A stretch of DNA of 64,000 nucleotides from Geminisphaera colitermitum TAV2 (GCF_000171235.2 NZ_ABEA03000120.1:1-64000); one strand, 5' to 3'; numbered from the stretch's first letter, positions 31,772 through 62,927 are shown. Notes: generated by a model from the sequence alone, not told the origin. Program-made: numbers and translations.

Positions 31772-32619
31772 TACGAAGCGAGCAAGGCGTTGTAGTGGAG
31801 GAAATATCCCGCTGCCGGTGCGGGGCCGGTGAGCTTGACCGTGAATCCGGCATTGGTGCGCGAAACGATGTCATGCACGAGGAAGTCGCCGCCCTCCGGG
31901 CGTTCGATGTCTAGCGAGATGGCGGGCTTTTGTCCGGCTGGATAGGTCGGCTGGAAGACAATGTTGACCGTGCCAACCCCGGCCTCAATCGCCACGACGC
32001 CAGAGCGCGTCCGCCCATCAAAAACGGCGGTTGCCGCATTGGCTGCATTGCCTGCCGCGTCAACGGCATCTGCGGCGGCTTGTTCGGCGGTGTCTTTGGC
32101 TTCTTCCGCCGCCGCCTTCGCTGCCTGCGCCTGCGCAACGAGCGATTGCATGATCTCAAGGTCTTCGGCCGGCGGAGCCTCGTCGCCGCGCAAAATGTCA
32201 TTCGACACGTCAGCGATAAGCGTCCCCGACTTGGCAAATGGGCCTTCGTCCTTTCGCCAGATGAATTCTCCCATCAGCGAAACGGAGGCGATTTCGTCGT
32301 CTGAAAACAGGCCATTGTTCAGGGGGTCTGTGTTGAGGCTGAGATTACCAACGAAGGCGTGGCCTCCCGCCGCCCCCTGATACTCCCATGCGTCCATCAG
32401 TGCGACAGGTCCGCCGCCAAAATGACCGTTGGCCTTGAAACCGAATTTGATTTGCGGAGCCTCCGCCGTCACGTCGTCGGGCAGGAACGGTTGCAGGCTG
32501 TCGTCTAGGAACGTCAGGCGAATCAGCGCGAGTTCACGACGTTTAAACGCGATGGCCGGGGACGCCTCGCCTCTCGGCCCGACAACCGCCCGTGTGGAGT
32601 GCTTAATGAAAATGTCCAT
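31771..32619 (-). CDS. Tail fibre-associated protein with Ala-rich coiled coil
   Basis: LVAQAQAAKAAAEEAKDTAEQAAADAVDAAGNAANAATAVF; gene order. Confidence 0.5.
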   Translation of the reverse strand: MDIFIKHSTRAVVGPRGEASPAIAFKRRELALIRLTFLDDSLQPFLPDDVTAEAPQIKFGFKANGHFGGGPVALMDAWEYQGAAGGHAFVGNLSLNTDPLNNGLFSDDEIASVSLMGEFIWRKDEGPFAKSGTLIADVSNDILRGDEAPPAEDLEIMQSLVAQAQAAKAAAEEAKDTAEQAAADAVDAAGNAANAATAVFDGRTRSGVVAIEAGVGTVNIVFQPTYPAGQKPAISLDIERPEGGDFLVHDIVSRTNAGFTVKLTGPAPAAGYFLHYNALLAS

Positions 32620-48444: not shown

Positions 48445-49138
48445 TGCGCGCCTCCGTCTCTTCGTCGCACTCTTCGATGTCCGCGAAGCGCTTCCTCTGG
48501 CGCGTAACCTTCAGCCCCTTTGACAGCCGCAACAGAATCCGGTCAACCGCCTCGTTATAGACCTTCACGGCCTTGTCCGTGTCGGTCATTTTCATGACCT
48601 CTTCGCAGATGGACGCCGCCTGCCCGTAAAGGTCGCTGCGCAGGCGCGTGGCAATCTCCGCCGCCTCGCGAACCACATCCTCGCGTGAAATCAGTTCCCC
48701 GCGCCGCTCCGCATTGTCGATCTCCAGCCGTTCGTTGATGAGCAGGATTCGCTTCGCGTTTAAACGCGGTAACTCGTCCTCCAGCGAGTCACCGTCAACG
48801 CCTCCGCCGCGCCCGGTTTCCTTCATCCAACGCTTCCAATCGGGAATGCTCCAACGGCCATTCGAGGCCGGATGCGGCGGGCCGTTGCGCTTCAGCTTTC
48901 CCCACCGGTCGATTGTCTGGCGCGTCACGCCGAGCGCGTTCGCAAGCTCGACCTTCGACTTCGCCCACGCCTTCGAGTCGGCGGCGGCAACGTCTTCGCC
49001 GTTGGCAACGGACTGGATCAGCGCACGCTCCGCCGCTGTCAGCGTCTTGCCCGACTTCAGCTTTTTGAGCACGTTGCCGACCTCGACCTGAAGCCCCTTG
49101 CGGGCGGCCTCGGCTAGTTCTTTATTCAAGCTAGCCAT
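48428..49138 (-). CDS. Terminase small subunit / packaging HTH protein
   Basis: ELANALGVTRQTIDRWGKLKRNGPP HTH; precedes large terminase. Confidence 0.7.
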   Translation of the reverse strand: MASLNKELAEAARKGLQVEVGNVLKKLKSGKTLTAAERALIQSVANGEDVAAADSKAWAKSKVELANALGVTRQTIDRWGKLKRNGPPHPASNGRWSIPDWKRWMKETGRGGGVDGDSLEDELPRLNAKRILLINERLEIDNAERRGELISREDVVREAAEIATRLRSDLYGQAASICEEVMKMTDTDKAVKVYNEAVDRILLRLSKGLKVTRQRKRFADIEECDEETEARNGSAG

Positions 49139-49832
49139 CGCGCATCACCTTCCCGAGCGCCGCCGTCATGGCCGCGCCCTCAAAAAACCGTTGTCCTGGC
49201 TCCATGCCGCACCACCGGAGAAAGGCGTCCCGGACGGCCTTCGACGGGAACACGAGCACGGCGTAATGGTCGCCCCCCTCCGTCGCATCGCTCTTCTCGA
49301 CGTGCTCCTTTCGCGCGTCCTTCATCTTCTTGATGGCCTCGATGTCAGCCGCTCCGCCTTCGTTCTTGTCGTCAAACAGACCGCCAAGCTCGCCGTTCTC
49401 AAAAATCACGTCGAAGTCTGCTGCGTCGAAACCCAACCCATCCGGCGCGTCGCCAAATTCCTTCACGATCTCGGCAAGCCGCTCCTCGTCCCATTCGCCC
49501 ATTGCCGCCGGGTTGTTGAGGAACACGTTCAGGCTCTTTTCCTTCGCCTCCGGCAACCGGACGGCGGCGACGGTCAACTCGTAATCGGACCGGCCTTCGA
49601 TCTCATCCAGCACAGACAAACGCTGGTGCCCGCCGACCAGATTGCCGGTCGTTTCGTTCCAAATCAGCGGCTCCACGAGGCCGGTTTTCTTCAGCTTCTT
49701 CTTCAGCCGTTTCCGGGCGTCGTCTCCAATGATGCGCGGATTGTAGGGCGCATTCTGGATCAACGCCCGGCTGATCGTGCGCGCCGTGAAAGTCTGGTGT
49801 TTTGTCACCTTGGATTTTGCCGCCTTCGCCAT
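49131..49832 (-). CDS. ParB-like nuclease domain protein (copy 2)
   Basis: NLVGGHQRLSVLDEIEGRSDYELTVAAVRL; NAPYNPRIIGDDARKRLKKKLKKTGLVEPLIWN. Confidence 0.85.
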   Translation of the reverse strand: MAKAAKSKVTKHQTFTARTISRALIQNAPYNPRIIGDDARKRLKKKLKKTGLVEPLIWNETTGNLVGGHQRLSVLDEIEGRSDYELTVAAVRLPEAKEKSLNVFLNNPAAMGEWDEERLAEIVKEFGDAPDGLGFDAADFDVIFENGELGGLFDDKNEGGAADIEAIKKMKDARKEHVEKSDATEGGDHYAVLVFPSKAVRDAFLRWCGMEPGQRFFEGAAMTAALGKVMRDG

Positions 49833-49834
49833 GT

Positions 49835-50494
49835 TTAAACGCTCTCCTTTCCGCCGCCAAAGCCGCGCCGCTCGAAGTGTTTCAGGCCATCAACGTATCG
49901 GGAATCCAATGACGCGCCGACGAAACGCAAAAAGGCATCCGTCTCCCCGGCGTCGCGGAACACGACAACAACCTGCGTGCCATCCTGCGTTTCCTTTGGC
50001 GTCGGATCGCCACCTTCACCGCCGGGCTCCGGCTCACCCTCGCCACCTTTTGCATCCGTCAGGAAATCCAGTTCTCCCGCCTCGAAGCCGAACTCCGGCA
50101 ACTCCTCCGGCCTGAACTCCTCCATGAGCTTGCCGAGCGCCTGCAAATCCCATTCGCCCATTGACGATGCGTTATTGAGGAAAACGTTAAGCTCTTTCTC
50201 CGTTCGCTCGTCCACGTCCACGGCGGCGACGGTAAGGCGGTAATCGCTGCGCCCCTCCAATTCATCGAGAATCGAAAGCCGCTGGTGTCCGCCGACCAGA
50301 TTGCCAGTTCGCCGGTTCCAGACGAACGCATTGACCAACCCCACGTCCTCAATCTTCGCCTTCAGGCGGCGGCGGGCCTCCGCCGTGATCCGGCGCGGGT
50401 TGTAGGGTGCGTTCGTGATCTGCCCCCGCTCGATCTCTTCGGGCAGGAACTTTTGCAACGCGGTGCGCTTGGGAGTGATCTTAACCTTGCCCAT
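49835..50494 (-). CDS. ParB-like nuclease domain protein (copy 1)
   Basis: NLVGGHQRLSILDELEGRSDYRLTVAAVDV; paralogous to the neighbour. Confidence 0.85.
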   Translation of the reverse strand: MGKVKITPKRTALQKFLPEEIERGQITNAPYNPRRITAEARRRLKAKIEDVGLVNAFVWNRRTGNLVGGHQRLSILDELEGRSDYRLTVAAVDVDERTEKELNVFLNNASSMGEWDLQALGKLMEEFRPEELPEFGFEAGELDFLTDAKGGEGEPEPGGEGGDPTPKETQDGTQVVVVFRDAGETDAFLRFVGASLDSRYVDGLKHFERRGFGGGKESV

Positions 50495-51157: not shown

Positions 51158-51231
51158 TGGGAGCAGGGGAGGGAGTCGAACCCTCATCTCCACGTTATGA
51201 GCGTGGCAAGTTACCGTTACTCTACCCGGCT
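51158..51231 (-). tRNA. tRNA with CAU anticodon (Met/Ile2 type), CCA encoded
   Basis: Hand-folded cloverleaf AGCCGGG-TA-GAGT-AACGGTA-ACTT-G-CCACG-CTCATAA-CGTGG-AGAT-GAGGG-TTCGACT-CCCTC-CCCTGCT-C-CCA; one C-T mismatch at acceptor 4-69. Confidence 0.88.
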
Positions 51232-51410: not shown

Positions 51411-52313
51411 CTACGAGCCGCAGGGAAGTGCCAGACGGCGTGGCGGCGAGAAAAACGCCTCCGCCTCCGCGCGTGTTGCCACGCCATCGTAATGCTTCGC
51501 GAGCAGCCTCAGCGAGCAATGCCCCATTACCTTTACAGCTGGGCCGGGGTCGCCACGCAGCGCAACGAAGTATGTGGCGAAGGTGTGGCGAAGAATGTCA
51601 TGACCAAGTGTTACGCTTGCCCGCATTGCCGCCTCGCGTCGCTCGTGAATCCAGCGAGGGACATTAAGCGATTCGGGAGCCTTGCCTTTGGACAAACGCG
51701 GAATGATTTCGCCGCTGTCGCGCTGATAGAGCGCCAGTTGCGCCCAAAGGATTGTCGGCACGCCTTCGATGATGCGCTTGTATCCAGTTTTCGCCACATC
51801 AGGAGGAAGCATGATGTAGCGTTCCTTCACATGGATGTAATCCCATCGCATCCGGCAAACTTCGTAGGGCCGGATGCCAGCGAAGAGGGCAAGGGCGAAC
51901 GCCGGGCGGTATGCCTCCGAGGTGGCGAGATAGAAGGCGTGTGCTTCGTGAGGTTTGAAGAAGCAAACTCTATCTCCTTTGTCACGCGGCAGACGAGGCA
52001 ATACGGGCTTCCCCCACTCAGCATCAACATCCAGCTTAATCAGCCTCTCTGACCTTGCCCATCGAAGCAACGTAAGCAACTCCTCTGCGAAGCGGCGGCT
52101 CTTTTTCTCGGCAATTTCGCGAACGTCATCGCGGGTAAAGCTGTCGGCTTCACGATCTGCCTCTGCCATCTCTTTCTGTATCCGCTTCGAGAAAACATCG
52201 TAATTGACGAGCGTCATCCCGCGCAAGTCCAGGTCATTGCGGCTCTTGATAAACAGGGGGAGAATTTCGCCAAGCGTCTTGCGTTTTTTTTGGAAAAACG
52301 GGAACGAAATCAT
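51411..52313 (-). CDS. Tyrosine recombinase / integrase
   Basis: GIRPYEVCRMRWDYIHV (Arg), GHDILRHTFATYF (HxxR), VMGHCSLRLLAKHYDGVAT (GH..Y). Confidence 0.88.
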   Translation of the reverse strand: MISFPFFQKKRKTLGEILPLFIKSRNDLDLRGMTLVNYDVFSKRIQKEMAEADREADSFTRDDVREIAEKKSRRFAEELLTLLRWARSERLIKLDVDAEWGKPVLPRLPRDKGDRVCFFKPHEAHAFYLATSEAYRPAFALALFAGIRPYEVCRMRWDYIHVKERYIMLPPDVAKTGYKRIIEGVPTILWAQLALYQRDSGEIIPRLSKGKAPESLNVPRWIHERREAAMRASVTLGHDILRHTFATYFVALRGDPGPAVKVMGHCSLRLLAKHYDGVATRAEAEAFFSPPRRLALPCGS

Positions 52314-52804
52314 TTTTCCGCCTCCACTCTGAAGATGCCCAATTTGCCTTTCAGCGGAACGAAGGGCAACGGCCTCGCATTCCGCAACACATAGCCGAAC
52401 GGTCCATCAAACCACGGCGACGGGTGCGAGGTCACGCAATCGACAATTTCAGCAACGCCAACGATGCCGCCTAGCGGCGCGTGTTCTTCGCTCAAGTCTT
52501 GAGGGTATGGCCTGCCAAGGGCAGAGCCAATAAACTCCTCGTCCTCAATGTGAATCGGGTAAGGGTTCAGCCCAGAGTGAATCAGGACAGGGCCGCGGTA
52601 GTTCGTGCGCCGGGTTCGGTTTTCAACGTCCTTGAAACCATGCACAATGAGGAAAGACCACGGCTGACGGATCGAGAGAGCAACGCGCGGCAAGTCTGGA
52701 TGCTGCCGGAATAGTGCTGACAGCGTGCTGACACCAGACGGGCGGAGGGTGTCCAGCCTGTCGAGCGGATGAGGGGACGGGAGGGGGGATGGTGATATGT
52801 GCAT
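52310..52804 (-). CDS. ASCH domain protein
   Basis: ALSIRQPWSFLIVHGFKDVENRTRRTNYRGPVLIHSG. Confidence 0.8.
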   Translation of the reverse strand: MHISPSPLPSPHPLDRLDTLRPSGVSTLSALFRQHPDLPRVALSIRQPWSFLIVHGFKDVENRTRRTNYRGPVLIHSGLNPYPIHIEDEEFIGSALGRPYPQDLSEEHAPLGGIVGVAEIVDCVTSHPSPWFDGPFGYVLRNARPLPFVPLKGKLGIFRVEAEK

Positions 52805-52884
52805 GTTTGGTCGTTTGCGGAGCGCAGCAGGCCTGCTTTTTCTGCTTCATTGAAGAAAAAACGGATGCGTTTAAACGGCTCAAG

Positions 52885-52899
52885 GTATCAAAATGATAC
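52885..52899. promoter_or_regulatory. Operator-like inverted repeat O1
   Basis: GTATCA-AAA-TGATAC perfect dyad between divergent genes. Confidence 0.65.
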
Positions 52900-52950
52900 T
52901 TTAAGTTATTGAGCATCAGCACCTCATTCCGAGGGAAGAAATTTTTCCTT

Positions 52951-52977
52951 CACAAAGTGTCAAAATGATACATTGTG
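52951..52977. promoter_or_regulatory. Operator-like inverted repeat O2
   Basis: CACAA-A-GTGTCA-AAA-TGATAC-A-TTGTG; same core as O1 with one mismatch. Confidence 0.65.
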
Positions 52978-53031
52978 AAATTCAGCAGAGGCATTCCGCC
53001 AAAGCAAAAAACCGCAAACGACCATCAGCCA

Positions 53032-53346
53032 ATGAAACTGTCTATTACTCTGTATCAGGAGCCGCCTCGCAGCGGATTCTACAAGGCCAACATCTTTGGC
53101 CGCGTCGCAACCTTTGGCTCTCGCCAGCAAGGAATTGACGCGCTCATGGCCATGAGATTTCCGCTCTCAATCGAAGGGCGAATAGAGGAAGGAAGCTTCG
53201 GCGAAATCGTCGTCGTTGACACGCCACCATCCGGGCACGGCTTGCTGACTGGCGGCGAGCTGGCGACCGCCATGAGATTCGGGCAGGACTGCTTTGGCGG
53301 AGGACATCCGGGGCAGATCGAGCGGATCAACTGTCAGGGCGTCTGA
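53032..53346 (+). CDS. Hypothetical early phage protein
   Basis: Start MKLSITLYQEPP chosen because the CGCAAACGACCA leader lies just upstream. Confidence 0.55.
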   Translation: MKLSITLYQEPPRSGFYKANIFGRVATFGSRQQGIDALMAMRFPLSIEGRIEEGSFGEIVVVDTPPSGHGLLTGGELATAMRFGQDCFGGGHPGQIERINCQGV

Positions 53347-53393
53347 TGGTAGTTCCAGCACTGACGAGACCAATTTCACGCAAACGACCAACG

Positions 53394-54431
53394 ATGCAAT
53401 CCACCAAAAACCACCTCTCCACACCAATGAGCAAGAACCAAATCTTTGCTCTCATTGATGCCTATTTTGACGAGGGAAACGCAAACATCACTTTCACCAC
53501 TGATGCTGACGACGTTCGCCGCCACGTGACGAAGGAAATCGAAGCATTGGGATTCCTCACGAAAGCAATGGAGCACGTCAGCGGGGCCATTGGCCTCATC
53601 CAAAAGTCAGCCGCCAACGCCGAAAGCCTTGCCAAAGCCGCCGCTGACCTAGCCGCTCGCAAGTCAGGCGGAACCTTCACCGTCGAGATCAAGTCCGCCG
53701 ATAAGCCGACCGTGAAGGTCGAGAATCCGCACAAGCAGTTTGCCGACCTCCTCACCATCATCGCCGCTGGCTGCAACGCATACCTCGCCGGGCCTGCTGG
53801 TAGTGGCAAAACAACTGCCGCCGAACAGGTCGCGGGTGCGCTCAAGCTGCCGTTTCACTTCACCGGAGCGGTCGCGACAGAATGGCAGTTGACCGGATTC
53901 GTTGACGCGGGCGGCAAGTATCACTCCACGCCATTCCGCAAATGGACAGAAGAGGGCGGCGTTTTCCTTTGGGATGAAATCGACGCCAGCGATGCGCGCG
54001 CCCTGCTTCGCTTCAACGCTGCGCTTGCGAACGGCATCTGCGAGTTTCCAGACGGCAAAATCGTCCGCCTGCATGAGACGTGCGTTGCGATTGCCGCCGC
54101 CAACACCTACGGGCAGGGTGCGGATCGGCAATATGTTGGCCGCAATCAGTTGGACACCGCCTCGCTGGATCGCTTCGTTTTTCTCGGATGGAAATATGAC
54201 GAGGAATTAGAAACGCGCATCGCCGGAAATCTCGAATGGACGCGCCGCGTGCAAGCCATCCGCCGCGCGGTCGAGTCCATGAAGGTTCGGGCCGTCGTCT
54301 CGCCTCGCGCCAGCATCTACGGTGCGCGCCTCCTCGCGCAAGGCATGGATGCCGCCACCGCCGAAACGCTCACGGTCTGGAAGGGAATGGACGCCGCCAC
54401 GGTCGCGAAAGTTAAAGCTCAAATCCGCTGA
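53394..54431 (+). CDS. MoxR/CobS-like AAA ATPase
   Basis: AYLAGPAGSGKTTAAEQVAGAL (Walker A), GGVFLWDEIDASDARALLRFNAALAN (Walker B). Confidence 0.85.
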   Translation: MQSTKNHLSTPMSKNQIFALIDAYFDEGNANITFTTDADDVRRHVTKEIEALGFLTKAMEHVSGAIGLIQKSAANAESLAKAAADLAARKSGGTFTVEIKSADKPTVKVENPHKQFADLLTIIAAGCNAYLAGPAGSGKTTAAEQVAGALKLPFHFTGAVATEWQLTGFVDAGGKYHSTPFRKWTEEGGVFLWDEIDASDARALLRFNAALANGICEFPDGKIVRLHETCVAIAAANTYGQGADRQYVGRNQLDTASLDRFVFLGWKYDEELETRIAGNLEWTRRVQAIRRAVESMKVRAVVSPRASIYGARLLAQGMDAATAETLTVWKGMDAATVAKVKAQIR

Positions 54432-54434
54432 ATC

Positions 54435-55226
54435 ATGACAACGCACTTTGACAATTTTTCCGACTTCCTCACTTACGCGGAGCAAACCAGCTCTTGGAAC
54501 AATCGCCTCTCGTCTCGCAGCACAAAGGATACCAAGTGGTTTGGCACGTCGTCATTTGGTGCCGCAATGGACCTCGCCCGCAACGGATGGGGGGATGGGC
54601 GTGATTCCGTAGAAAAGACGCGCGCGCACTTCGCCAGCGTGATCGGCTCACGCGCTCGCCGGAAAATACTCACTCATGGCGTCCAAGGCCACATGCCGGA
54701 CGTTGGTGCATACCTCGCCGGGGAAGTTGAGAGCATGTTTTCAACTCAAACCATTGAGGACGATAGCACTGGTCGAATTATCCGTATGGTAGTTAACGGC
54801 ACCGCCTCCGGAGGAATTGACGCCGAGGCAATCATGTCGCGCGGCGCGCTAATTGTCGCATTGATCGACGCACTGGAATCGTCCGCCTTCAGCGTCGAAC
54901 TAACGATGGTTTTTCACGGCAACTGCGGCGGCGCAGATACAATGCAAACCATCCTCGCCAAGCGCGCGGGCGAACCGGTCGAGATTGACCGGCTGGCATT
55001 TTGCGTTGCCCACCCGTCGATGTTTCGCCGCCTGATTTTCTCCTGTTGGGAGCAAGACCACCACTACATGCAGGTAAATGGGTCTAGCTATGGCATGTGC
55101 GCCGAAGCCGAAGATGGGGGAGACATCTACCTGCCAAGCTCCGATCTCCGCGTCATTACCGATGGAGACGCCGTCCAATGGGTGCGTAACCATCTCGCGC
55201 CGCTCGGCATCACTTTCGACGAGTGA
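54435..55226 (+). CDS. DUF7192-like phage protein, partner of AAA ATPase
   Basis: TKWFGTSSFGAAMDLARNGWGDGRDSVEK motif; adjacent to AAA ATPase. Confidence 0.6.
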   Translation: MTTHFDNFSDFLTYAEQTSSWNNRLSSRSTKDTKWFGTSSFGAAMDLARNGWGDGRDSVEKTRAHFASVIGSRARRKILTHGVQGHMPDVGAYLAGEVESMFSTQTIEDDSTGRIIRMVVNGTASGGIDAEAIMSRGALIVALIDALESSAFSVELTMVFHGNCGGADTMQTILAKRAGEPVEIDRLAFCVAHPSMFRRLIFSCWEQDHHYMQVNGSSYGMCAEAEDGGDIYLPSSDLRVITDGDAVQWVRNHLAPLGITFDE

Positions 55227-55273
55227 GCGCAAGCCGCTCGTCACAACAAAAACCGCAAACGACCAAAAACATC

Positions 55274-55933
55274 ATGGGCAAAATTACCATAACATCAAAG
55301 CGAAGGGGAGCCACTGGCACGGCTTCGCCGTCCGCTGACCCCAAAGACCGCGAAGCATACTTGATGCGCGCGGCTGAATTGCTGCGCGAAGACTTCCGCG
55401 CTGCCGGTTCTGACATTCCGCCTGTCCGCCTCTCCGTTGGCTTTCCAAAGCGCGGCGGCAAATCGGCCATTGGCTCATGCTGGAAGCGCGAAGCGAGCAA
55501 GGATGGTGCTTTTCAAATTTTCATTTCTCCGGTCTTGGAGGACTCCATTGAGGCGCTGGCCGCGCTCGCACACGAGCTTTGCCACGCCTGCACGGATTGC
55601 ACCGGCCACGGCTCCGATTTTGGCCGCATCGCGCGCGCCATCGGCCTTGAGGGAAAGCTGACCGCAACCTACGCCGGGCCAAAGCTGACAGCGCGTTTAA
55701 ACGCTCTGATCGAGGGTGAGCTTGGCAAGTATCCGCACGCCGCGCTCACGCCGGAACAGTCGGGCGTGAAGAAACAGGGCACACGCCTCGTCAAGTGTGT
55801 GTGCGAAGAAAGCGGATACACCGTCCGCACAACGCGCCAGTGGCTCGTTCAATACGGACCGCCAATCTCGCCAGCGTCGAAAAAGCCGATGAAGGTCGAA
55901 GGCGTTGACGCGCTGGAAGGGGGTGCGGAATGA
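55274..55933 (+). CDS. SprT-like zinc metalloprotease
   Basis: ALAHELCHACTDCTGHGSDFGRI (HExxH...H) and C-terminal CVCEESGYTVRTTRQWL. Confidence 0.75.
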   Translation: MGKITITSKRRGATGTASPSADPKDREAYLMRAAELLREDFRAAGSDIPPVRLSVGFPKRGGKSAIGSCWKREASKDGAFQIFISPVLEDSIEALAALAHELCHACTDCTGHGSDFGRIARAIGLEGKLTATYAGPKLTARLNALIEGELGKYPHAALTPEQSGVKKQGTRLVKCVCEESGYTVRTTRQWLVQYGPPISPASKKPMKVEGVDALEGGAE

Positions 55934-56367
55934 GCGCAGAGGCAATTCCTTCGCCCGGCGACCATGTGCAAGGCACACACCTGCTTGGCGCGACCTATAC
56001 CGGGGTCATTCGCAGTCGCCGCCCCCATACTATCGACCGAGACACAACGATTTTTGAGATACTCTTCGATAAGCCAACCGAACTCGGGAAAAATGACGTG
56101 CGTGAATCAATTATCGTCAGCGCGACACCACCAACTTTCCATGGCGACACACAGTGGCAGGATGGGCATGGTGGATGGTTTCGTGTCATAGGACAGCACG
56201 GCCTCGCCGATGAACTGCGAAACCGGTTCGCACATTTTTACAAGCAGACGGACGGCACATATCGCTTTCCAAACTCCTGCGAGGGCGACCTTTTAAAAAT
56301 GACTGCTCGGCTTCTCGGGATTCTGCCAAGCGCACCTTCGTCGCCGCATATCACACATGACAATTGA
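55930..56367 (+). CDS. Hypothetical phage protein
   Basis: 145 aa ORF, overlapping start with upstream gene. Confidence 0.5.
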   Translation: MSAEAIPSPGDHVQGTHLLGATYTGVIRSRRPHTIDRDTTIFEILFDKPTELGKNDVRESIIVSATPPTFHGDTQWQDGHGGWFRVIGQHGLADELRNRFAHFYKQTDGTYRFPNSCEGDLLKMTARLLGILPSAPSSPHITHDN

Positions 56368-56662
56368 CGCCATGAATCAGATCGACACAACGGGCTCCAT
56401 GCCCAAAATCGCCGATACGTTGACCAACATCGAAAAACTCAAAATCCTTTGCGACCGCGAAGGATGGACCTCAACCGACGACGCCGGACCAAACATCGGC
56501 ATCACGCCCAGCACACTACGCAGCTACTTCAACGGCAACCGCAATCCAGGGAAGTTCACCGCCCTCTACATCGACAACCTCGTGCAAAGCTACGAGGCAG
56601 AGGGCCGAAAGGGGCTCCGCAAATTCGTGAAAGGTGCGGCCAAGATACTGACAGAATCCTGA
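56357..56662 (+). CDS. Small HTH-like protein (repressor/regulator candidate)
   Basis: DDAGPNIGITPSTLRSYFNGNRNPGKFTALYIDNLV. Confidence 0.5.
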   Translation: MTIDAMNQIDTTGSMPKIADTLTNIEKLKILCDREGWTSTDDAGPNIGITPSTLRSYFNGNRNPGKFTALYIDNLVQSYEAEGRKGLRKFVKGAAKILTES

Positions 56663-56684
56663 TCACACCTCCACCAAGACTCAC

Positions 56685-56716
56685 GCCCGACTCTCATCAT
56701 GGGGTCGGGCTTTTTT
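56685..56716 (+). terminator. Rho-independent terminator
   Basis: GCCCGAC-tctcatcatggg-GTCGGGC-TTTTTT. Confidence 0.85.
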
Positions 56717-57008
56717 GCGGCCTGATTTCAACCTCGTGAGTGTAACATGCGCGCGAACGTCACACACAGGAGAGGCGGTTGCTGCCGCGGAACCACAACA
56801 ACAATGGGCCGGGCAAAAAGATTCCTTGCCGGGGGTGGTATGAACCCCGCTGATGGCTGTATCAGTTCGCCCGATACGTAATCATTAGCCCTTCGACTAA
56901 CTGCCGCGCGCTGCGACTGTAGGCTTGACGGATTTCCGGCGTATCCCCCATTAGAATACTTGCCGCGTGCGCCGCGACGTTTGGCATTCGATCCTAAATC
57001 CATCCTCT

Positions 57009-57719
57009 TCAGTTACGCGATGGATCAGACGGTGGCGTGATCCCCTCCACGTTCGCCTTCGCGCGATGGACCTTCCGCATCAGGCTTCGCGTCTTCTCGC
57101 TGCGTCCGCCTCGTGCCGCGATGCCAAAGCGGTCGCGAAACTGGCAGGCGTAGCGGGAAAGGATCGTGTCCGTGCAGCCAAGGCGCTTCGACAGTTGGTG
57201 CATGGAGATGCCGTCGAGCGCGTCAGGCTTGAGAACCCATAGCGCCGCGATGGTGCGCAGGCCAACGGTGCGCGCGTCGGGCGGCTTCGGATGCGGGGTG
57301 CCCGCTGACAGGTCTGGCATCGTAAGCATGTGGCAGAACTCGCCGAGGCCATGCGCGAGGCTGGCGAAGTTCTCGCCGCCGTCCGGTTGTTGCGCAGCGC
57401 CCTCCGCTTCCTCCACGGCATCGTAATCGAAATCGACGTAATCGTGAGCGTGGCGGATCGGATGCAGTTCACGAGGGGCAGGGCAGTGGAGGGGCGCGTG
57501 TTGCTTTTTGTCGCTTCGCGTCGCTTTCTGTCGCTTCGTTATTTTTTTTCCGGTAGCCCGAAAATCGGGATGCGCAGTGAGCCAGGCACGCGCATCGGCC
57601 AGCGTGAACCGGCCTGCGAAGGCTGGCGCGAAACCGGCCTGCTGCATCCGATGGACGTAATGACGCGACCTGCCGAGCGCGGCGGCGAGTTCCTTGCGAG
57701 AGAGAAGACGATCGCTCAC
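57009..57719 (-). CDS. HTH phage regulatory protein
   Basis: LLSRKELAAALGRSRHYVHRMQQAGF N-terminal HTH; second HTH-like LSKRLGCTDTILSRYACQF. Confidence 0.6.
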   Translation of the reverse strand: MSDRLLSRKELAAALGRSRHYVHRMQQAGFAPAFAGRFTLADARAWLTAHPDFRATGKKITKRQKATRSDKKQHAPLHCPAPRELHPIRHAHDYVDFDYDAVEEAEGAAQQPDGGENFASLAHGLGEFCHMLTMPDLSAGTPHPKPPDARTVGLRTIAALWVLKPDALDGISMHQLSKRLGCTDTILSRYACQFRDRFGIAARGGRSEKTRSLMRKVHRAKANVEGITPPSDPSRN

Positions 57720-57928
57720 TGCGATCCTCTCCTTCCATTCTCGACACGCACGCAGCCGCGAATGCCTGCCGCTTTAAGCCATGCCTTGGCCCAATTGGTC
57801 TTTGTGTGGCAATCGGTGCAGACCATGCCGCCGATCTCGGAGTCGGGCCATGTTCCGGCGTCGGACATGCAGCAGGCGCAAAGGTAAACGAGCTTCCCGG
57901 ATGCTGTTTGGACAGGTGGCGTGGTCAT
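57716..57928 (-). CDS. Small zinc-finger-like protein
   Basis: LCACC...CTDCH Cys pairs. Confidence 0.5.
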   Translation of the reverse strand: MTTPPVQTASGKLVYLCACCMSDAGTWPDSEIGGMVCTDCHTKTNWAKAWLKAAGIRGCVRVENGRRGSQ

Positions 57929-58845
57929 ATCCGAAACTCCTTTCGTCCGTCTGTGCCGGTGGTGACGGTGCCCTGATCGGCTCGGCGCGCGTGGATCGAA
58001 TCGCAGAGAGGATCGCGCAGGCGGCGAACGATGGCTGCGCCCGTAGCCTCCTGCTTGAACCGGGAGACGAGGTCAGCGCCGACATACTGCGTCGTTACGA
58101 CGACGTGCCGGTGCCAGTTGGCGCGAGTGCGCAGCAGCTTCAGCAGGCGCTGTTCCTTCTTAAAATCGGGCACATCGTTGCCCAAGTCATCAATGATGAG
58201 GACCGGCACGCTGAACGCCTCCTGCGGCATGGAATCGAGCAGGTCGATGGCTTCGATCAGCATGACGCCGACGCCCTCTTCGCAGAGACGGCGGTAAAGC
58301 TGCCAGCAAACGCGCGTCTTGGCGCTGTCAGTGTCGCCGTGAATGACCAGACCGCGCTTTGGCGCACGGCCTTCGCTGGGGCACCATTGCGCGCCCCAAT
58401 CCATAACGCGTTTAAACAGTGTGGCGCTGCCTTTGGCGTTGTCCCAATCTGGCCGGAACTCGGTCGGGCAAATGCGCTCCCAAAGCTCGCGGTTGCGGCG
58501 TGCCGCCTCCTGGTCGATCTTCGCGGCCTCGTAGCAGGCCTCGCAGCAGTTCACGGCAAACCAGCCGGGGGCAAGCCGTGCGTCGATCTGACGCCAGAGT
58601 TGGCTAAGGGGCTTGCCGCACACCTTGCACTTGCCGTCGTAGGGGTGCGGGTGCCCGGTGAAGTCGTCGAGGCCGCGCAAGAGCAGCGCGCCTTGCATTT
58701 CGGAAGCAAGCGGGATTTCGGCGAACGCTGTCGGCCCGCTGTGGCGCGCCGCATCGGATGGCGGCGGCGGTGCGTAGTCGTCGGGCCAGCCCCCGCCGAA
58801 CGGGTTGCCCTCGATGTCTGTCGTATCGGTTTCGGTTGTCTGCAT
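57925..58845 (-). CDS. DnaC/P-like AAA+ helicase loader with zinc motif
   Basis: RGLVIHGDTDSAKTRVCWQLYRRL, VPVLIIDDLGND; CKVCGKPL...CCEAC. Confidence 0.75.
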   Translation of the reverse strand: MQTTETDTTDIEGNPFGGGWPDDYAPPPPSDAARHSGPTAFAEIPLASEMQGALLLRGLDDFTGHPHPYDGKCKVCGKPLSQLWRQIDARLAPGWFAVNCCEACYEAAKIDQEAARRNRELWERICPTEFRPDWDNAKGSATLFKRVMDWGAQWCPSEGRAPKRGLVIHGDTDSAKTRVCWQLYRRLCEEGVGVMLIEAIDLLDSMPQEAFSVPVLIIDDLGNDVPDFKKEQRLLKLLRTRANWHRHVVVTTQYVGADLVSRFKQEATGAAIVRRLRDPLCDSIHARRADQGTVTTGTDGRKEFRI

Positions 58846-58878
58846 GTTTGGTCGTTTGCGGTTTTGTTGGTGAGCCGA

Positions 58879-59739
58879 TCAGAAGCCTTTGCTGTGATCG
58901 GAAAGCGGCATTTGGAACGGATTCCCTCCGGGCCGATGGGTTGGCGGTGGCGGCGGGTTGGCACACTTCGCCCACCACTTGGCGAGGGCGGAGGCTGAGA
59001 GCGTCACGTCGGGCATGTGGAGGCGGTAGTTCGCGGCGCGGCGGGCGATTTCGTCGGGTGTCAGGCCGGGGACGACGCGGCGGATGTCGGCAAGGGCGAC
59101 GCCCACGGCACGGGCGGCGGGCTTCGTGAGTTGCGCCGGGTCGGAGCCATCGACGGCGGCAAGGGCGTCGAAAAGCGGGTCGCGCTGGCGAGGCTTTGGC
59201 GCGGCTGGCGGCGGTTCGGATTGAGGCAAGGGCAGTTCGTTGCCGGGCGTCTCGGCAATCGGCGCGGCGGCGGATGCCGACGCTCTATCTCCATTCCCTT
59301 CCTTTCCCTGTTCCTTTCCCTTCCTTTCCAGCGACGAACGTTCGTCGAGTGCTCGTCGAACATTCGACGAATCCTCTTTTTCAGGAGGCGAATCAGAGGG
59401 AGCGGCACCGTCAAAGAATGGTTTTATTTTCGATTTTGACGGGCGATCTACGCGCTGATGTTCAGCGAAACTCACGATGCGGCCAGTCGGTCCATGAGAC
59501 GAGTGCTCGCGCAGTTCGACGAACCCAATTTTCGAGAGGTCGTCGAGTGCTCGTCGAACATTCGACGAATCCTCGTCGAGTGGTCGCAGAGCGGCGCGAA
59601 TCAGGCGGGCATCGGCGTAAAAATAGCCCTCGTCGTCTGCGTAGTTAAGCAGGCCGATAGCGAGAAGTTTTGATGCGTCAGACTGGCGCACCATGACAGG
59701 GTGTGACCAGAACTCAGGTTTGATGGTGCGGATTCTCAA
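58879..59739 (-). CDS. O-like replication initiator (winged-helix replisome organiser)
   Basis: MRIRTIKPEFWSHPVMVRQSDASKLLAIGLLNYADDEGYFYADARLIRAAL; upstream of DnaC-like gene. Confidence 0.75.
   Translation of the reverse strand: MRIRTIKPEFWSHPVMVRQSDASKLLAIGLLNYADDEGYFYADARLIRAALRPLDEDSSNVRRALDDLSKIGFVELREHSSHGPTGRIVSFAEHQRVDRPSKSKIKPFFDGAAPSDSPPEKEDSSNVRRALDERSSLERKGKEQGKEGNGDRASASAAAPIAETPGNELPLPQSEPPPAAPKPRQRDPLFDALAAVDGSDPAQLTKPAARAVGVALADIRRVVPGLTPDEIARRAANYRLHMPDVTLSASALAKWWAKCANPPPPPTHRPGGNPFQMPLSDHSKGF
59332..59574. repeat. Two 35-bp direct repeats with nested palindromes (candidate origin iterons)
   Basis: tcgtcgagtgctcgtcgaacattcgacgaatcctc at 59342-59376 and 59540-59574; palindrome CGACGAACGTTCGTCG at 59332-59347. 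Confidence 0.8.
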
Positions 59740-59781
59740 TGAGTGTTTTCCTTTCTGATATACGAACGCCGGTTGGCAGAA

Positions 59782-60048
59782 TCAGGTGTTACGCTCTTCG
59801 ACTTCGGCCTTGATGATGAAACAGTCATCTTTGATGAAACCGCGCACCAGTGTGCCTTTAAGTGCTGTCCGTACAACGGGAGTGAGTGGCACCAGCGCCT
59901 CAACGATCTGGTGGAATTGCTCGAAGCTCGCATCGAACTTTTCGCAAATTGCGGTTTCAATTTCTGACGAATCGGCGTCTTCGCTCAAATTCAGCAGGGC
60001 GCGTGCTAGTTCTTCCACATCCATCCAGTCTATTTTTGTATTTTTCAT
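59782..60048 (-). CDS. Hypothetical phage protein
   Basis: 88 aa acidic ORF in the early operon. Confidence 0.45.
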   Translation of the reverse strand: MKNTKIDWMDVEELARALLNLSEDADSSEIETAICEKFDASFEQFHQIVEALVPLTPVVRTALKGTLVRGFIKDDCFIIKAEVEERNT

Positions 60049-60090
60049 TTTTGTATTGGGAAAAAATTGCGTAACCAGACGGTGGCGCGG

Positions 60091-60534
60091 TCACTCCGTG
60101 CCGCGCACCTCGGTGTTACGCTCTTCGAGTCCTTGGCGCTGGCGGTGCAGGGCAAAGACGGCATCGGCGTGCGGATCGTCGCTGGCAGGCGCGTTGCACC
60201 GATGCGAGTCCTGCACGGCGTAGATCATCTTCCATGCTGGATTTTTCGGATTCACTTTCCCGAGCATTGCGGAGTGGCAGGCGGTGATCGTCGCATCGAG
60301 CAGGTCCATGCGTGAGGCGGCATCTCGGAGACCGAGAATTTCGCATTTGATCTCACGCTCGCTCTCGTCATCGAACGCGCCGACGGCATTGAGCATTTCG
60401 TCTTTTTCGTCCGCCTGAGCCCGGAGCCAAGCGGCCGAACCAAGTGCTAGTTTGTGTGTGTTTTCCATATGTGTGTCCTCATAGATTGTTGTCGTCGTAG
60501 TCCCATTGGTCTGCGCTGTCGTCGATTTCGTCAC
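60091..60534 (-). CDS. Hypothetical phage protein
   Basis: Likely start at MENTHKLALG; early operon. Confidence 0.45.
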   Translation of the reverse strand: MTKSTTAQTNGTTTTTIYEDTHMENTHKLALGSAAWLRAQADEKDEMLNAVGAFDDESEREIKCEILGLRDAASRMDLLDATITACHSAMLGKVNPKNPAWKMIYAVQDSHRCNAPASDDPHADAVFALHRQRQGLEERNTEVRGTE

Positions 60535-60878
60535 AAAGTCCGCCTGCGAGCACGCCAGCGCACGGCACGTCTCCTAACCGGCATCGGCAGTGTTTTGCCA
60601 TGCTTTCGACCCAAGCCTGATACTCGGGATCATCCGTCATATCGAGAGGCGTCACGTTTTCGCATTTCGGTTTCATGGCATTCAAAAAAGCGTAACAATT
60701 CACCCCTCCAAACCCTACGGGTTGGAGGCTTTTGGGTTAGAACTCAAAGCTACGCCGCCGGATTGTGTGAGCAGATACTCATGGGCAGCGTATCTGGTGT
60801 CGATTCCCCGGAGGAAATCCACGAGTTTTTGGGCGAGGGGTGGGATTGTATCGTTCATAAATTTTGTATCCAAAAAGT

Positions 60879-61229
60879 CTAACCATGCGACTCGTGCGAG
60901 GCTTCGCCCGCACGGTCTGAGGTGTTCAGCGGAGCGCTCACGCGCCGAGCCTCGAAGGTGCGACGCCGCTCCGCCCGCTTTTCGTTTTTCCATTCGAGCA
61001 TCGTCTTGCCGAAGTGGGCCTCGGCGCATGAGGCGCAAAACCAGACGCCGCAGTATAGGCAGCGATAAGCCAGTTCCAACGCACGGGGCCGGCCACAGGG
61101 GCAATGCACGGTGTGCGCCGAAACAGCCTCCGCCCATTGCGTTTCGAGGGTTTGTTTTTTGGCCGGATCATCGGCCATCGTTATGTATTCGATCTGGGCA
61201 GGCATTTTGAAAATCGCTGAACCATTCAC
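60879..61229 (-). CDS. Zinc-finger-like phage protein
   Basis: CPCGRPRALELAYRCLYCGVWFCASCAEAHF. Confidence 0.55.
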   Translation of the reverse strand: MNGSAIFKMPAQIEYITMADDPAKKQTLETQWAEAVSAHTVHCPCGRPRALELAYRCLYCGVWFCASCAEAHFGKTMLEWKNEKRAERRRTFEARRVSAPLNTSDRAGEASHESHG

Positions 61230-61693
61230 TCGACGCGACCTGTCGGCGCGTCATTCGGGGTGTCCGAATCGGAATCTTTCTCGCGCTCCATCTGGTCTAT
61301 AACCATTGCCATGCTAATGCTCATGTGACCAAGACACAGCACTACGAGGACGCCGAAGAAGTTGGCTTTTGCGACGATGCCCCCACCAGCCAACACGAAA
61401 AAAGCGTAACCCATAAAGCGGAAGACCGCTTCGCCGAGATAGAGGAACAGGCCCGGCCAACCATTCGCGGGAGGCAACGCCTCTGGCTTTTGTTGTGTTT
61501 CGTTATCCATTGGTGCGTGCCTCCGCTGGTGTGTTAGACTGGAGCCGAGGGGCGCGATACTGGCAGCCAGTGCCGGGGGAAATGGTCCATCCCTCGTAGT
61601 CTCCATTGAGCCACGGGGTCCACCTACCGCTTCCCTCGCGGTAGCGGTATTGGTAGCCGGGCCGGCGCTTCTGGCCGGGCCGAAGCCGAACAT
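61226..61693 (-). CDS. Membrane protein
   Basis: Internal start MDNETQQKPEALPP likely; two hydrophobic segments. Confidence 0.45.
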   Translation of the reverse strand: MFGFGPARSAGPATNTATAREAVGGPRGSMETTRDGPFPPALAASIAPLGSSLTHQRRHAPMDNETQQKPEALPPANGWPGLFLYLGEAVFRFMGYAFFVLAGGGIVAKANFFGVLVVLCLGHMSISMAMVIDQMEREKDSDSDTPNDAPTGRVE

Positions 61694-61916
61694 ACTTGGG
61701 CTTCGCTATTGCCTCACGCTCCCACCTGTCGCACTTGCGCAGCATCGCACGGAGCGTCTTGGTTTCGGCGGCAACGGAGTCGTCGTCATTCATGATAGTC
61801 CAGCGTCGCGGGCCACATGCGACAATGTTGTATCCGCGATAATTGTAGAACCCGCGCTTGATCCTAAAGGGCTTGTGTTTCGTTTTCATAAGCCTCCTTT
61901 CTTGGCGGCATCCCAT
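61503..61916 (-). CDS. Hypothetical phage protein
   Basis: Arg/Tyr-rich, early operon. Confidence 0.4.
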   Translation of the reverse strand: MGCRQERRLMKTKHKPFRIKRGFYNYRGYNIVACGPRRWTIMNDDDSVAAETKTLRAMLRKCDRWEREAIAKPKYVRLRPGQKRRPGYQYRYREGSGRWTPWLNGDYEGWTISPGTGCQYRAPRLQSNTPAEARTNG

Positions 61917-62590
61917 GCTGCCAACGACTCGTTACCGATTGTCACGATCGCCCCTTCATGACGCATGACATTACAAACAAACTTGAGGTCGGATGCCAGC
62001 GCATCACCAGCGGCGGCCAAGGCGGCGACATGGGCGCGGAGGGAAGCCCATTCCTCGTAGATTCGCTTAAGCGCGTCTATAGCACCTTCGCCGCCAAACG
62101 CTCCGTGGCGGTCGATTATGTTCACCATGGCGCCCCATTCATCGCGCAGATTTACATAGTCCGCGCCCATTTCGGCTGGCGTCTTGGCAAACACATCGGC
62201 AGCCCTCATCAAGTCGCCCAAAATGAACTCTGCTTCTTCGGGGCTGAATCCATATTCAGCGATGACAATAGAGGCTTTCGGTGACGCTTCGCCACTCCAT
62301 GTATTAGCCTCTCTGGCAAACGGCTCCAATGCCTCCCGCAACTCCGCAACCAGTGCCTCGGCGGCTTCGGCACGGCGCTTCCAGTCGAGCCAACACACGT
62401 CCTTGGTTGCTTGGCAATTCAGCGCCTCGGCAAGTTTGGTGGCACTGTCCGGACCCTCGCTCCATACACAACCAACAAGCAATGCACTGTCAGGGGCGTC
62501 GGGGCTTCCATACCACACGTCGCGGGGCAGGTTTGGAAAAACAAAGTAATATGGCGCGTTTAAACGCTCTGTATTCGTTTTGTCATTCAT
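61886..62590 (-). CDS. Hypothetical phage protein
   Basis: 234 aa; LEALVAELREALEPFAREA coiled coil. Confidence 0.55.
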   Translation of the reverse strand: MNDKTNTERLNAPYYFVFPNLPRDVWYGSPDAPDSALLVGCVWSEGPDSATKLAEALNCQATKDVCWLDWKRRAEAAEALVAELREALEPFAREANTWSGEASPKASIVIAEYGFSPEEAEFILGDLMRAADVFAKTPAEMGADYVNLRDEWGAMVNIIDRHGAFGGEGAIDALKRIYEEWASLRAHVAALAAAGDALASDLKFVCNVMRHEGAIVTIGNESLAAWDAAKKGGL

Positions 62591-62593
62591 GGC

Positions 62594-62902
62594 TCAGAAG
62601 GGCTTTCCGTTTTGAAGCATTCCGGGGAACGCTGCGGTCACAGCGGGAGGAGCGGGAGGAGCGGGAGGAGCGGGATTTTTGAGCGGCGCGTCGAAGGCGA
62701 GGCGCGAGACCACGGTTTTGTTTGCCGGGTGGATCTCGCAGAGATCGGCAACGGAGTAGCCGTCAATGCCAAAGCCCTTTCTGCTCCGCTTGTGGAACGC
62801 GCCAAGCGCGGCGGCGCCATCGACAGCCCATGCTTCGCTGATCCGGTCCTGCTCAAGTGGCGTGTCGTCCTTGAGCCGATAAGTGATTCGGTATAGTTTC
62901 AT
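62594..62902 (-). CDS. Hypothetical phage protein with PPA repeat tail
   Basis: MKLYRITYRLKDDTPLEQDRISEAWAV; preceded by CGCAAACGACCA leader. Confidence 0.55.
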   Translation of the reverse strand: MKLYRITYRLKDDTPLEQDRISEAWAVDGAAALGAFHKRSRKGFGIDGYSVADLCEIHPANKTVVSRLAFDAPLKNPAPPAPPAPPAVTAAFPGMLQNGKPF

Positions 62903-62927
62903 TGGTCGTTTGCGTATTTATTTTTCA

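Follow-up and report, generated by a model that had tools for sequence, protein, structure and literature searches.

Eight early genes of one prophage carry a phage-specific start tag, an identical 12-mer, CGCAAACGACCA, that stands just ahead of the start codon. The window we analyzed is a stretch of 64,000 nucleotides (contig C106:1-64000) from the 5.67-Mb draft genome of a probable verrucomicrobium, likely of the Opitutaceae, and a scan of this genome identified nine exact copies in the prophage (C106 52808-68364) and two elsewhere, with 9 of the 11 lying within approximately 16 kb of the one prophage. Nine exact copies in the region from 52 to 69 kb compare with an expectation of 0.007 (both strands, Markov orders 1-3). 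Eight of these nine are in the sense orientation, 0-11 nt upstream of an ATG; the ninth (68343) is the downstream half of a 21-nt tandem pair, running into the ORF MKPQTTKPQ and falling at codons 3-7 of the 68350 gene. The copies are confined to 52.8-68.4 kb and are absent from the structural-type genes between 33 and 49 kb, where the terminase assignment is supported.

The initial annotation had described six exact copies in the window, all in the sense orientation and 0-8 nt before an ATG, with a longer form in four of them, and our analysis confirmed each of these points. On the minus strand, the copy at 52808-52819 (longer form, with its preceding C) is 3 nt from the ATG at 52804 of a gene (52310-52804) assigned to phrog_3193, formerly described as an ASCH gene, for whose product a Pfam search gave no match; the copy at 58849-58860 (with the preceding C) is 3 nt from the ATG at 58845 of a gene for a DnaC-like helicase loader (57925-58845, phrog_50); and the copy at 62903-62914 directly abuts (0 nt) the ATG at 62902 of a gene for a 102-aa protein of unknown family (62594-62902). 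On the plus strand, the copy at 53013-53024 (with the preceding C) is 7 nt from the ATG at 53032 of a gene for a 104-aa protein with no family (53032-53346), the copy at 53379-53390 is 3 nt from the ATG at 53394 of an AAA ATPase gene (53394-54431, PF00004/PF07728, phrog_249), and the copy at 55254-55265 (with the preceding C) is 8 nt from the ATG at 55274 of a SprT-like gene (55274-55933, phrog_6361, with PF10263 slightly below cut-off). Three further exact copies, all on the minus strand, lie beyond the end of the window, at 67028, 68364 and 68343. The copies are found before the first genes of three transcription units and also before internal genes. It had been considered that the 12-mer might prove equally common within genes or in antisense; prophage-wide, no copy is antisense and none lies deep in a gene, the sole exception being the tandem member at 68343.

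The signal resides in the exact copies only. One-mismatch matches across the genome are at or below the number given by a reversed-pattern control, so the 12-mer has no diffuse host family, and the scan allowing up to two mismatches that the initial annotation had proposed gave a total of 17 against 11 expected, a weak excess, although the exact copies alone are far above chance. The 10-nt core, GCAAACGACC, is invariant at 18 sites in this phage and a related one, with A-rich flanks in which information drops sharply on either side. A non-prophage copy (contig C214 11799-11810, minus strand) overlaps the ATG opening MATPAFTYQDTFPLG, an ORF which we take to be perhaps a fumarase, and is consistent with chance.

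The same prophage has other repeated sequences. The palindrome CGTTTAAACG (often GCGTTTAAACGC) is a phage-specific DNA site, with 11 of its 12 sites in the 5.67-Mb genome located in this prophage, several of them within genes (window positions 32540, 36076, 37277, 39349, 46179, 48757, 52868, 55694 and 62557, and positions 70297 and 71165 further along contig C106), and with nine sites in the related prophage. A 413-aa protein encoded at C106 64624-65865 (L013:624-1865) contains many 20-aa repeats, VDVRANATFTAPVLAEVSGY, that are nearly identical to one another. Two neighbouring genes at window positions 49131-50494, putatively ParB-like and flanked by the terminase genes on one side and a PAPS-reductase-like gene on the other, share DNA stretches that are approximately 66-68% identical.

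The element is also present in the related prophage, G234 (IMG/VR contig 2508501067, which includes L141 and L110; L140 is the prophage of the window itself), which contains seven exact and two near copies, all at starts or in the equivalent tandem. Comparing orthologous sites by ungapped counts, we observe that the element matches at 12 of 12 positions while the 40 nt upstream are 17% identical at 68364, at 11 of 12 with 30% upstream identity at 53379, at 12 of 12 with 42% at 58860, and at 12 of 12 with 62% at 67028, where the leader is retained though the proteins behind it are just 35% identical. Of the proteins behind the window copies, the AAA ATPase is 83% identical to its G234 counterpart, the SprT-like protein 86%, the DnaC-like protein 77% and the 102-aa protein 81%. 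The G234 ortholog of the 53379 copy reads AGCAAACGACCA, with the ACG-ATG spacer and the first codons unchanged, and two G234 genes located upstream of the first shared gene (24767 and 25011) are also tagged, one of them with the near form AGCAAACGACCC. Spacers differ between the phages by 1-2 nt at 58860 (3 nt here, 2 nt in G234), 55254 (8 nt here, 9 nt in G234) and 67028, and by 3 nt at 68364; the reading frame through the element is therefore not generally conserved, and at 55254 the ORF is not simply open through it. Exact-pattern scans of IMG/VR and of GTDB genomes returned, beyond the two known prophages, only scattered single matches, at about the chance estimate or fewer. Homologs of the AAA protein were absent from all others of the 373 genomes of the order, and no IMG/VR contig besides the two known ones contained homologs of the AAA and DnaC-like proteins. 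Since the element occurs in only two related phages, shared ancestry contributes to its conservation. Both phages also encode a tRNA with a CAU anticodon (window 51158-51231, minus strand; L144:761-834 in G234), which does not look like an initiator, as judged by its anticodon stem lacking GGG/CCC.

The genes behind the element differ from other early genes in how their starts are marked. Using 25 early genes, with starts that are hand-curated predictions and with a simple 4-mer test as the Shine-Dalgarno (SD) window, we found an SD-like 4-mer in 0 of 8 element genes compared to 9 of 17 other early genes (Fisher p=0.02), and these 9 of 17 in turn exceed the 9 of 70 found at internal ATGs of the same genes (p=0.0009). 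In the same gene set, starts are uncoupled in all eight element genes, each being a first gene or preceded by a gap of at least 25 nt, but in only 4 of the 17 others (p=0.0005), 13 of which overlap the preceding gene or lie within 20 nt of it. This contrast in coupling would be expected of any intergenic DNA site, and so alone cannot choose between RNA and DNA. The element itself does not resemble an SD site, as it has no purine-rich core and its spacing to the ATG is variable, ranging from -1 to 13 nt, overlap with the ATG included. The absence of a GGAGG-like sequence noted in the initial annotation agrees with our finding that none of the six window leaders contains an SD-like 4-mer, but the label “noncanonical” attached to it is misleading, since host starts are not enriched for SD-like sequences (8% of 150 long-ORF starts versus 11% of internal ATGs). 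A missing GGAGG is thus ordinary here; a shared 12-mer is not.

We favor a start-associated element acting at the level of mRNA and read by a shared factor, similar to the start-associated sequences (SAS) of cluster K mycobacteriophages but lacking the SD core, and this explanation carries about half of our confidence. The 12-mer would act within the mRNA, at the place where ribosomes load on those early genes whose translation has to start independently, with other phage genes instead using an SD-like site or coupling to the preceding gene. Its reader, common to both phages, would belong to the host translation machinery or be a conserved RNA-binding protein of the phages, and would set initiation of the early gene set jointly, whether by raising or lowering it. 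The earlier proposal of a start-linked element marking early or replication-side genes is supported by position, orientation, conservation in a second phage, SD exclusion and uncoupled starts; from these we infer a translational rather than a transcriptional role, action in RNA and reading in trans. Because the spacing varies from -1 to 13 nt and the element can overlap the AUG, a regulator or RNA-chaperone site is likelier than a fixed rRNA-pairing site.

Our search for a reader covered rRNA, Rfam, repressor and Rep candidates and identified no trans factor reading the 12-mer among them. The longest pairing with rRNA (E. coli rRNA only) was 5 nt in 16S and 6 nt in 23S, as in shuffles, and the predicted accessibility of the element gave no signal (0.69, versus 0.71 in same-composition shuffles). 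The only complementary copies were those on the opposite strand of each site, and an Rfam search found one tRNA and no other RNA; these searches thus gave nothing in favor of the small-RNA target suggested in the initial annotation.

The main rival is a stoperator-like DNA site, i.e., an asymmetric, regulator-bound site in short gaps that would block elongation or initiation in the lysogen, which we consider possible but doubtful. Its geometry is matched by the short intergenic gaps and the transcription-oriented copies, and the tandem copies at 68364 and 68343 are spaced 21 bp apart, two helical turns, in both phages. A DNA-binding reading is also kept alive by a 96-aa HTH-like protein (56372-56662, plus strand, weak HTH_3 match), which is 92% identical in G234 and is a candidate DNA-binding factor common to both phages. 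However, stoperator motifs diverge with their repressors (PMC6550527), and they would not be expected to show a tight tie to, or overlap with, the ATG, or SD exclusion. Here, the divergent regulator beside the first early gene is an RHH protein (C106 68488-68832, L013:4488-4832, PF01402), while the regulator at the same position in the related phage is HTH and CI-like, as judged by sequence pattern (L143:4126-4692); by eye, the repeats upstream of the two are unrelated, and the immunity region appears to have been swapped between the two prophages. These likely repressors, identified as such by position and fold family, are unrelated while the 12-mer is identical, which, as far as these assignments hold, argues against a repressor operator. 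The same logic argues against an origin or iteron site read by a replication initiator: 11-bp iteron-like arrays inside the Rep genes (window 59335-59586; L143:13746-13863), which adjoin a conserved C-terminal part, have different unit sequences, TCGAGTGCTCG-like in one phage and GGGAAGCACTC-like in the other, while the 12-mer is the same. Tandem arrays with an 11-bp period, built from the 11-mer GCAAACGACCA, lie inside the replication-initiator genes of approximately 9 out of 11 other contigs (DnaD-like/O-like, with array peptide TSKRPANDQQTT, in IMG/VR contigs L196, L197, L198, L200-L204 and L206), three of these genes being confirmed by PHROGs and the remainder by similar translation; of the tandem hits obtained with two scrambled 11-mer controls (10 and 5), none lay in initiator genes as judged by translation. 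An origin-iteron reading by way of GCAAACGACCA was dropped, as the Rep genes of both phages studied here carry other iterons.

Three other readings are less probable. A host-type leader without an SD, i.e., an A/C-rich, U-free ribosome-loading sequence that spread by recent copying and needs no dedicated factor, is unlikely, even though host leaders are C/A-rich immediately before the ATG in our sample of 150 starts, SD-scarce Verrucomicrobia are listed in the literature (PMC10783764), and P8625, a phage of another verrucomicrobium, is likewise poor in SDs (13%). Against it, the core is absent from every host leader in the 150-start sample, P8625 has no repeated start motif, and composition alone would not call for 18 sites sharing one exact 10-nt core. 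If the 12-mer were a promoter element read by a transcription system specific to the phage, with transcripts that are leaderless or have very short leaders, this would account for copies ahead of the first genes of three transcription units, with internal genes also served; but spacings of -1 to 13 nt would often place transcription start sites inside genes, and the element is T-free and coincides with no sigma-70-like match, all of which makes this reading highly improbable. Least probable of all is a recombination linker, a short boundary sequence shared for gene exchange and irrelevant to translation. Similarity between the phages does start or stop at the element at 53379 and 68364, and falls directly after the element at 55254, but the element is also conserved where the flanks differ on both sides (58860) and where both are alike (62914), and a linker would require neither orientation nor adjacency to an ATG.

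How start codons are chosen in SD-poor bacteria is an open question. A second start tag, unrelated in sequence to the SAS, without an SD core and in a host whose starts are not SD-enriched, separates “start-associated” from “SD-containing”. The leader is also small enough to be testable, consisting of 12 nt plus a spacer, with natural variants available in AGCAAACGACCA and AGCAAACGACCC and in spacers from -1 to 13 nt. We tentatively suggest, as a generalization that we regard as speculative, that phages of SD-scarce hosts may use a private 10-12-nt mRNA tag as an SD substitute, with a dedicated phage or host reader, and that this would switch translation of the whole early set without depending on either the immunity repressor or the replication initiator.

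Among known systems, SD-scarce initiation in Verrucomicrobiota and Bacteroidota (PMC10783764) is similar in its lack of an SD and its A/C-rich leaders, although a fixed leader sequence is not described in the accessible part of that source, and here one exact sequence is reused. Our literature search, which was not exhaustive, turned up no phage of an SD-scarce host in which a start-associated repeat had been described. The stoperators of cluster A phages such as L5 are 13-bp asymmetric sites located in short intergenic spaces and oriented with transcription (PMC9283540, PMC6550527), and the 12-mer resembles them in being an asymmetric, intergenic, transcription-oriented site of 12-13 nt; it differs in being tied to start codons, in its restriction to the early region and in having no apparent shared cognate immunity repressor. 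The closest known system is the SAS of cluster K mycobacteriophages, a 13-bp asymmetric repeat with consensus GGGATAGGAGCCC present in 11-19 copies, which occurs in one orientation a few nucleotides before the ATG of almost exclusively non-structural genes, is rare in the host, and is conserved across subclusters with genes of different families (PMC3203893). The SAS contains AGGAG and can pair with 16S rRNA, but its role in translation initiation is unproven (PMC3203893), and its function, since it was named in 2011, is still without experimental proof (PMC3203893, PMC12699233). Like the SAS, the 12-mer is a short asymmetric repeat found a few nucleotides before starts, in one orientation and restricted to the non-structural half of the phage genome; a casual look noticed no inverted-repeat ESAS upstream of it. 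Unlike the SAS, it has no AGGAG core (0 of 8 leaders are SD-like), and its host shows no SD enrichment. The 12-mer is SAS-like in placement, but its sequence is unrelated to the SAS consensus and does not make it a member of the SAS family.
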